This document shows, piece by piece, positions 1-55,161 of a stretch of DNA of 55,161 nt (positions are counted from its first letter, which is position 1; every line of letters starts with the position of its first letter). The stretch lies in assembly GCA_009694365.1 (NCBI GenBank), contig SHVE01000012.1, forward strand, positions 1-55,161. Direction: 5' to 3'. The DNA comes from Thermoleophilia bacterium. Its GTDB lineage: Bacteria; Actinomycetota; Thermoleophilia; Miltoncostaeales; Miltoncostaeaceae. Position numbers and translations under genes: made by a program. The notes beneath the pieces were generated by a model. It was not told the origin of the DNA. It saw only the letters and a program-made list of their open reading frames with translations, and searched no databases.

Positions 1-668
1 GTGCGCCGACACAACCACAGCCTCGACGCGGGGGTCACCTTGGCGTGAGTGTGGAGATTTACCCGGTGCCGTCCTTTGGATTTCAGTCTCATCAACCCTC
101 ACCCGTCAGGATGGCACCGGGTGAATAACGTGCTGGCCCCTCACAGCTACGGAGCGGCCTCTCGTTGGGGCCAGTACGAACCCTCTCTTCCAACCCGAGG
201 GTTCGGTCACGGCGGTATGTCCCTCGCGTTTCGCGTCGGACTGAGTGGTTGCTCAGTCCCCCGTCGTCGAGGCGTCGGGGAATCCTCATCAACTCACTCA
301 TCCCGATCGGCACCGATCAGAGCGAGTCAGCCGCGCGCGCGCGGGACCCGATGGGCCCGCGGGCGCGCGGCACACTGGGCGACGGGATTCCCATTGAGGG
401 GGCAGTTCCGGACCTCCCGGGGTATCCCCGCGCCGCTTGTGGAGGCCCGGAAACGCGTGCGAAGTCGCCCCGGGGCCGTACGAGTACGCGTGGCCATCGG
501 GAGATCGATTGGTCTCGTCGTGCCGACGGCCCGGGGCGGGATACCGAGGTGATCGTCGTTGGCTCGGGGCACCACGCGATACTCGGTAAAGTGTTGGGGG
601 CCGACGTGGTGGCCGAGGTGCACCGGTACTCGGCATTCCCATCGCGATCGTGATCGAGCGGTCCTCCC
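1..668. other. gene-free region upstream of tRNA-Thr
   Basis: I see no convincing protein gene here. Open frames exist on both strands but are Arg/Pro/Gly-rich, overlap one another and match no family I recognise. Bases 1-48 read in frame from the left edge to a TGA at 46-48, so the last 15 codons of a gene entering from the left are possible but unproven. The stretch contains several stem-loops (58-259), a short GATCGG/CCGATC palindrome at 305-318 and a pure alternating CG run at about 332-343. Confidence 0.5.
58..259. other. run of four consecutive stem-loops, possible structured RNA
   Basis: Four inverted repeats follow each other almost without gaps. Arms 58-75 and 108-125 form 18 pairs (two G-U) around a 32-nt loop. 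Arms 129-140 and 167-178 form 12 pairs (one G-U). Arms 178-185 and 197-204 pair perfectly over 8 bp. Arms 238-245 (GGACTGAG) and 252-259 pair perfectly over 8 bp with a 6-nt loop. I looked for signatures of RNase P RNA, tmRNA, SRP RNA, and cobalamin, TPP, FMN and SAM riboswitches and found none. It may be an unrecognised structured RNA, a leader or trailer, or the remains of a repeat element. The strand is not determined. Confidence 0.4.
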
Positions 669-53222: not shown

Positions 53223-53723
53223 TTACGACTGCTCGGCCTCCGTGCGCACGCGCGCGTCGGCGTCGAGCACGGTCTGCTTCATCTCGGCGGTGCGCAGCGC
53301 AACGCGCGTGGCCAACTCCGGATCGGAGAGCGCCAGAATGCGTGCCGCCAGAAGCCCGGCGTTGGTGGCGTTGTCGACCGCCACCGTTGCTACGGGTACC
53401 CCACGCGGCATCTGCACGATGGAGAGCAGGCTGTCCATTCCCGAGAGTGCACTGGTGCGCACGGGAACACCGATGACCGGCAGCACGGTGACCGACGCCA
53501 GCATTCCGGGAAGGTGTGCCGCACCACCGGCACCGGCGATGATCACCTGGATTCCCCGACCCGCGGCCTGCGTGCCGTACTGGATCATTTCCTCCGGCGT
53601 TCGGTGGGCGCTGGTGACCCGCACCTCGTGCCCGATGCCGAGTTCGTTCAGCACGTCCACGGCCGCCTGCATCACGGGCAGGTCGGAGTCGGACCCCATC
53701 ACCACTCCGACGAGCGTGCTCAC
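53223..53723 (-). CDS. purE: N5-carboxyaminoimidazole ribonucleotide mutase
   Basis: This 166-aa enzyme moves the carboxylate of N5-CAIR to C4 in purine synthesis. The class I PurE motifs are [17 protein letters not shown] (H40) and [10 protein letters not shown] (H70), with the C-terminal [12 protein letters not shown] helix. ATG 53723 overlaps the purK stop by 4 bp, so PurK and PurE are made together, matching their consecutive reactions. Confidence 0.97.
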
Positions 53724-54862
53724 AGGCGCACCAGTGAGGCCGCGAGGCGCGCGGTCTGCAGGGCGTCGTCGGGGTCTGTTCCAAGAGCGGTCACGTGGCC
53801 CATCTTACGGCGCACGCGCACGTCGGCCTTGCCGTAGAGGTGAATGTGGGCGCCCTCGATACCCGCGGCGTCCACGATGTCGGGGTTGCTCGGACCGTCG
53901 TGCCCCCCGAGCAGGTTGACCAGCGCCGCACCGGGGGCGATGAGGGCGGTGGATCCGAGCGGTAGGCCCAGAACCCCCCGTAGGTGGTTCTCGAACTGCG
54001 ACGTCACACACGCCTCGATGGTGTGGTGCCCCGAGTTGTGCGGCCGGGGCGCGAGTTCGTTGATCAGGACCCCGCCGTCCGCTGTGTGGAACATCTCCAC
54101 GCCGGTCACGCCCGCTCCGCCGCAGGCCTCGGCGGCGGCACGGGCCACGCGTTTCGCCTCGTTCGCCACGCCGGGGTCGATCGGGGCGGGGCAGAGCAGT
54201 TCCCGGAGCACATGGTCGTGCTGGCGAGTCTCAACCACCGGATACACGGCGTCGCCGCCCCCGTGCCGCCGGGCCACCATCACGGCAAGTTCGCGTTCGA
54301 ATGTGACCACGGCTTCTACCAGTACGCCGCCGCCCCGCTCCGCGAGTGCCGGATAGGCAGCGAGCGCCCCGGTGATGTCCGCGCACAGGGCGTTGCCGTA
54401 GCCGTCATATCCGAGGGTGCGTGACTTAAGCATGAGGGGCCAGCCGAGAGTGCGACCGGCGGCCTCCAGATCGCCCGGGCCGTCGGGCACCACGAACGCC
54501 GGAACCGGGAGCCCAGCGTCACGCAGCGCCAGCTTCTGAAGCGCCTTGTCCTGCACGATGGCCATACGCGCCGGATCGGGCCGCACCGGCGTACCGGCGT
54601 CGGCGACCGCAGCGAGATGGGATGCGTCGACGAACTCGTTCTCGAGGGTGAGTACCCCCACCTCGTGGCCGATGCGCAGAAGGGCACCCGCATCTCTCCA
54701 GTCGCCCTCGATCAGCCCGGCGGCGGCACCCACGGCGGGGTCAGTCGGCTGGCCCAGCACGGCCACACGGATTCCGAGCGGCCACGCGGCGAGTGCGGTC
54801 ATCTGCGCGAGTTGCCCGGCACCGGCGATGCCGACCTCGAATGCTGGGCGCGTGGGGCTCAC
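53720..54862 (-). CDS. purK: 5-(carboxyamino)imidazole ribonucleotide synthase
   Basis: This 380-aa ATP-grasp enzyme makes N5-CAIR from AIR, bicarbonate and ATP. It has [16 protein letters not shown] near the N-terminus, the ATP-grasp [12 protein letters not shown] loop, [17 protein letters not shown] and the metal-binding [27 protein letters not shown] 54862 has a -10 box 8 nt upstream. It is the first gene of the purK-purE operon. Confidence 0.96.
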
Positions 54863-54924: not shown

Positions 54925-54997
54925 GGGCGTTTAGCTCAGTTGGGAGAGCACCAGCTCGACAAGCTGGGGGTCACTGGTTCGAGCCCAGTAACGCCCA
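54925..54997 (+). tRNA. tRNA-Val (anticodon GAC) with C33
   Basis: Acceptor GGGCGTT (54925-54931) pairs with AACGCCC (54990-54996), discriminator A. The anticodon stem CCAGC/GCTGG encloses TCGACAA. Alignment puts anticodon GAC at 54958-54960 and C at position 33 (54957), where U is almost universal. D- and T-arms are normal. CCA is not encoded. Its 3' end faces a recombinase gene 42 bp away. Confidence 0.93.
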
Positions 54998-55006
54998 CTC
55001 TCGGTA

Positions 55007-55032
55007 GAAAGGTCTGCTTATGCAGGCCTTTC
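55007..55032. terminator. hairpin between tRNA-Val and the recombinase end
   Basis: GAAAGGTCTGC-TTAT-GCAGGCCTTTC pairs over 11 bp with one G-U. Convergent position suggests that it ends both the tRNA transcript and the recombinase mRNA. Confidence 0.75.
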
Positions 55033-55038
55033 GTCGTT

Positions 55039-55161
55039 CTAGACGGCCACCGGGCTGGTTGCAGCCATCACCGGGCCATCACGTAACACGCGCTTTATGC
55101 CATCGAGCAGCCACTCCGGCTCGTCCCGGAGCACGTGCGCGTACACCTCTCGTGTCGCCGC
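55039..55161 (-). CDS. C-terminal end of a tyrosine recombinase/integrase (cut by window edge)
   Basis: Forty codons are open from the right edge to TAG at 55039. The start reads AATREVYAHVLRDEPEWLL. The pattern T-x-x-Y-x-H-V is the catalytic-tyrosine motif of phage-type integrases and Xer recombinases (as in STTxxYxHV), here T3-R-E-V-Y7-A-H-V. A helix WLLDGIKRVLRDG and a short tail follow. The reading direction brings the gene end up to the tRNA-Val 3' end, the usual layout for an integrase beside its attachment site. Only about a tenth of the protein is in view, so family and intactness cannot be judged. Confidence 0.62.
   Translation of the reverse strand, partial: AATREVYAHVLRDEPEWLLDGIKRVLRDGPVMAATSPVAV

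Follow-up and report, generated by a model that had tools for sequence, protein, structure and literature searches.

What begins at the right edge of this stretch of DNA, where a tRNA-Val gene is followed by the end of a minus-strand reading frame, and why does the contig stop inside that frame? The window analysed here is the entire contig C12 (55,161 bp), one of the 19 contigs of a MAG of 1,496,510 bp from a genus within the Miltoncostaeales. The answer that we regard as very probable is that an integrase-bearing mobile element has inserted at the 3′ end of tRNA-Val. Direct support comes from both ends of the element, the 24-nt duplication with an intact proximal tRNA, an integrase C-terminus lying toward the tRNA, paired subterminal repeats and a second copy; a related third left end, in recJ, adds to it.

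The tRNA-Val border and the integrase fragment

The tRNA-Val(gac) gene (54925–54998, plus strand, ARAGORN), the presumed insertion target, is intact. Its chromosomal flank outside the element is purK (53720–54862, minus strand), in an order kept in relatives; the gene is presumably purK, a name based on its sequence and on the usual pairing of purE with purK. The attachment repeat GAGCCCAGTAACGCCCACTCTCGG (54981–55004, plus strand) comprises the 3′ end of the tRNA and the next 6 bp, and it meets the right end of the element (55004–55161), which runs on past the contig and recurs at C14:1–158 with one mismatch, the last 149 bases being identical. A hairpin with an 11-bp stem (55007–55040, plus strand; −19.4 kcal/mol) lies next to the repeat, as one also does beside the copy on C14, and to judge from its sequence it is likely to terminate the tRNA transcript. 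The opposite end of the contig is a repeat as well: window positions 1–149 are common to the ends of C4 and C14.

The minus-strand frame (55161–55039) is open at the contig end and translates to AATREVYAHVLRDEPEWLLDGIKRVLRDGPVMAATSPVAV, 40 residues followed by a stop codon, and contains the motif TREVYAHV. Its stop codon lies 40 bp from tRNA-Val, which places the integrase gene at the tRNA-side border; the first-pass annotation had recognised this adjacency, but the spacing is 40 bp and not the 42 bp it gave. It had also read the motif as resembling the catalytic tyrosine region of an integrase, and in alignments with homologues the Tyr does fall in the same column as the tyrosine of the full-length PF00589 integrases that G030 and phage contig L088 carry. 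In a longer integrase remnant beside tRNA-Ala in G007 (JAURGT010000031), a member of the same genus, 25 of 36 residues match the fragment (69%), and this remnant contains HDFRHR and matches PHROG integrase families. Homologues in relatives show HDxRHR, the window fragment representing the final 40 codons alone. Taken by themselves, the 40 residues gave nothing against Pfam or PHROGs, a query of this length being too short to score, and a tblastn search with them in phages returned chance hits only. An integrase scan of the viral contig collection found L088 alone, and the same scan of the genome contig collection found remnants in relatives only; integrase genes adjoining tRNAs in this genus are mostly broken. 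On the evidence of these alignments the fragment is the C-terminus of a tyrosine integrase, known here from 40 residues alone.

Subterminal repeats, the far border and the insertion hotspot

Both ends of the element carry a 33-bp direct repeat that holds two GTGATGGC units 11 bp apart. At the right end the repeat occupies 55057–55089, falls within the integrase frame, has its two units (GCCATCAC) at 55064–55082 and is 97% identical to its counterpart at the left end. Pairs with an 11-bp period occur at comparable distances from the attachment repeat in G003, G007, G013, G018 and G030, and in phage L088 they follow the integrase gene and stand on both sides of a sequence resembling a tRNA 3′ end; across the window, such pairs occur at a background rate of 2.2% per 150 bp. 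The G017 left, G011, G005 and G018 tRNA-Val ends yielded none, and an exact scan of the viral contig collection for the subterminal repeat returned nothing. Integrases of the lambda and L5 types hold the two ends through arm-type sites, and our analysis suggests that the paired repeats are probably sites of this kind.

The first-pass annotation had predicted that the tRNA-Val 3′ end would recur, and it does so in the same genome: GAGCCCAGTAACGCCCACTCTCGG at 54981–55004 is matched over 24 nt, with one mismatch, by GAACCCAGTAACGCCCACTCTCGG at the right end of C17, read in reverse. A second kind of element end, which reads GTAAATCCGCGCC..., closes contigs C17, C7 and C9. Reversed, C17 runs through GGATTTAC and GAACCCAGTAACGCCCACTCTCGG into a GC-rich hairpin, and since it carries the tRNA-Val 3′ end the order is C12, element, reversed C17. 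At the edge of C17 sits a GDSL-hydrolase gene that four relatives (G003, G006, G012 and G018) have on one contig with tRNA-Val, at a variable distance of 1.9 to 13 kb. In G003 and G018 more repeat copies stand between tRNA-Val and the GDSL gene; G013 and G017 have them upstream of that gene. The purK/tRNA-Val site is thus an insertion hotspot with variable inserts across the genus. Together with the integrase C-terminus, the duplicated tRNA end and the paired end repeats, this fits the earlier suggestion that an integrated element starts here and extends to the right.

The inserts at such sites differ in content. Secreted pentapeptide-repeat genes recur as inserts next to tRNA genes across the genus (L035:136–774 in G003, L158 in G017, L157 in G013, and L051 and L030 near tRNA-Ala), many of them ending in CPNGTVTNTGC or near variants; they form an array in G013, and in G003 one stands alone between two attachment repeats. 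The 10-kb insert at tRNA-Val in G018 (L154:5964–10363, G018:C8) encodes consecutively an ATP-grasp protein, a TauD dioxygenase, an O-methyltransferase and a dehydroquinate-synthase-like cyclase, which we take to be the set expected for synthesis of a mycosporine-like sunscreen.

One of these inserts bears on whether the element moves itself. The visible integrase could be no more than a dead 3′ remnant, with the unit that is repeated being a short non-autonomous element, composed of ends and cargo, which another integrase moves in trans; a short contig would then explain why the interior of the unit is missing from the bin. Relatives that retain only integrase 3′ ends beside tRNA-Ala and tRNA-Val are consistent with this, as is the 1.06-kb insert of G003, which lies between two perfect repeat copies and holds a single pentapeptide-repeat gene without an integrase. 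Against it, both copies (C12 and C14) show the same 40 codons, uninterrupted, and a search of the bin, which is without the element interior, revealed no other phage-type integrase. We consider a non-autonomous unit rather unlikely, and favour an element that bears its own integrase, which may be a prophage or a genomic island.

Copies, cores and contig ends

The element is present beyond tRNA-Val. At copy 2, contigs C14 and C7 carry an identical 21-nt sequence, CGCACCTGAATCGCACATCCA, adjoining the element ends. The flanking genes are adjacent in nine relatives (G001, G005, G007, G010, G011, G012, G014, G015 and G018), in which this non-tRNA site is empty. A dispersed palindromic repeat, CCCCGACACCGGGGGGAATGTTAAGTGCCTGACACCGGGGG, flanks copy 2 on both sides (C14 and C7 edges; L009 and L012); it also lies behind most of 31 matches in G014 and is found on many G014 contigs. 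Copy 3 is known from its left end alone, which C9 carries in the 3′ end of recJ and which has 6 mismatches in 145 positions (96% identical). In relatives relA directly follows recJ; here the two are separated, with relA on C15, preceded by the apparent last codons of recJ and the start of a gene for a secreted protein. A repeat matching the C9 junction in recJ was sought at the start of C15, and none of at least 12 bases was found there. The recJ gene is seemingly split across L069:1–345 (C15) and L011:8900–9216 (C9) by an insert in which a gene encoding a secreted repeat protein accompanies the left element end.

Copies 1 and 2 share their terminal bases (GGATTTAC and GTAGAAAG) around different repeats, GARCCCAGTAACGCCCACTCTCGG and CGCACCTGAATCGCACATCCA, and copy 3 adjoins a third, different sequence. 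The copy-2 and tRNA sites are alike at 15 of 29 positions; as much similarity is seen at 0.4% of background positions. On each side, the repeat at copy 2 is distinct from the tRNA core, local sequence flanking both ends. Classical secondary-site integration would leave a tRNA-like core on one side, so a local core on both sides counts against simple integration of that kind. Either a variant of the element carries the copy-2 core, or the core was replaced on insertion. In G014 a near-match of the copy-2 core occurs within a protease gene; we attribute it to chance.

Under replacement, the element would enter loosely related sites, and the 21–24-nt sequence of the new site would come to flank both sides in place of the core carried in. 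The shared terminal bases around different enclosed repeats, the third sequence at copy 3 and the resemblance of the copy-2 site to the tRNA site point in this direction. Known tyrosine recombinases, however, exchange strands over 6–8 bp; a variant element whose own core matched the copy-2 site would give an identical picture; and only one complete non-tRNA site has been seen. We therefore hold core replacement to be improbable, and give the same low credence to its wider form, in which the element would multiply in a reduced genome by passing from its tRNA site to unrelated sites and gaining the 21–24-nt sequence of each on both of its sides, in the manner of a transposon with a long target duplication.

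The copies also account for the end of the contig. The last 149 bases are exactly common to C12 and C14, and likewise to C17 and C7; other contig ends in the same assembly overlap by this length too. C12 stops where it does because the element is multi-copy, the assembly having halted once two copies could no longer be told apart; the break falls within the element, whose interior is absent from the bin. Chimeric joining could in principle have produced the shared ends and repeats, given that the genome is a MAG whose contigs break at this point, but such an artefact is very improbable: the shared ends match the assembly overlap length exactly, as at ordinary repeats elsewhere in the bin, the flanks of copy 2 are contiguous in relatives, and both flanking repeats lie outside the shared 149 bases. 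Contigs cross the junctions unbroken, and therefore each of the two insertions is probably widespread in the population sampled; they would presumably share one cell. The first-pass annotation was right about the boundary and its cause, and the multi-copy nature of the element and the reason for the contig end go beyond what it foresaw.

That the gene is a chromosomal XerC/XerD, with the tRNA a coincidental neighbour, has in its favour a short motif without a Pfam or PHROGs score by itself, but is scarcely credible and was dropped: a separate, adjacent pair of complete Xer-type recombinases on C1 shows no match to the fragment, relatives have homologous integrase ends at tRNAs, the fragment is repeated on C14 and the tRNA end is duplicated. 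XerC/XerD with conserved chromosomal neighbours and without a duplicate of the tRNA end had been named by the first-pass annotation as an outcome that would count against its own reading; the fragment is not XerC/XerD, and the duplicate exists.

Proposed mechanism and comparison with known systems

In the model that we favour, a circular form of the element would recombine with the 3′ end of tRNA-Val, and its tyrosine integrase would join circle and tRNA at a short core in the T-arm/acceptor sequence while holding the two element ends through arm-type sites in the lambda/L5 manner. The tRNA would be kept whole, with the observed element-borne hairpin as its new terminator, and the old tRNA 3′ end and its hairpin, both observed at the junction on C17, would have been pushed to the far border. 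Spread to at least one secondary site would have followed, and recently, because the two copies have 149 identical bases at each end.

A reduced actinomycete genome of 1.5 Mb is thus host to an integrase element that appears to have been recently active. Its near-identical ends at two kinds of site offer a concrete test of integrase site relaxation, and the locus is a clear case of contigs that end exactly where two element copies become indistinguishable. For this family or order, the literature yielded nothing on mobile elements.

Tycheposons are cargo-carrying transposons of 4–200 kb with a tRNA border and a tyrosine recombinase (PMC10872708). Likened by features, and here from the element ends alone, the present element resembles tycheposons and the flexible genomic islands of aquatic bacteria in its tRNA border, its tyrosine recombinase, its small-genome aquatic host and the combination of a fixed site with a variable insert (PMC10872708). 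Temperate phage contig L088 (IMGVR_UViG_3300044738_000031) has a related integrase of 385 aa followed by two 11-bp-period pairs, and its sequence suggests that the tRNA-3′-end-like stretch between them is probably attP; it differs in being a phage genome and in a shared C-terminus that is just 46% identical over 24 residues. The tandem tRNA-Ala element of G030, from the same family and a complete genome, is a 12.1-kb unit with a related integrase, 11-bp-period pairs at both ends and a 24-nt repeat (GATCCCGGTATCCTCCACTGACGA) at the same part of the tRNA. It differs in using tRNA-Ala rather than tRNA-Val and in having an intact, full-length integrase of 390 aa, and the next attachment site lies 12.1 kb away, with a second integrase gene beyond it.

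With tRNA-targeted islands and prophages of the lambda/L5 type (PF00589), the element shares a duplicated tRNA 3′ end, an intact tRNA, an integrase at the tRNA end and paired arm-like repeats flanking the core on either side. Unlike them, it occurs at least twice, in near-identical form, in a single small genome, and one of these copies occupies a non-tRNA site with a different repeat. An integrase element inserted at a tRNA is of a known kind; it is the multi-copy state and the differing cores that merit following.
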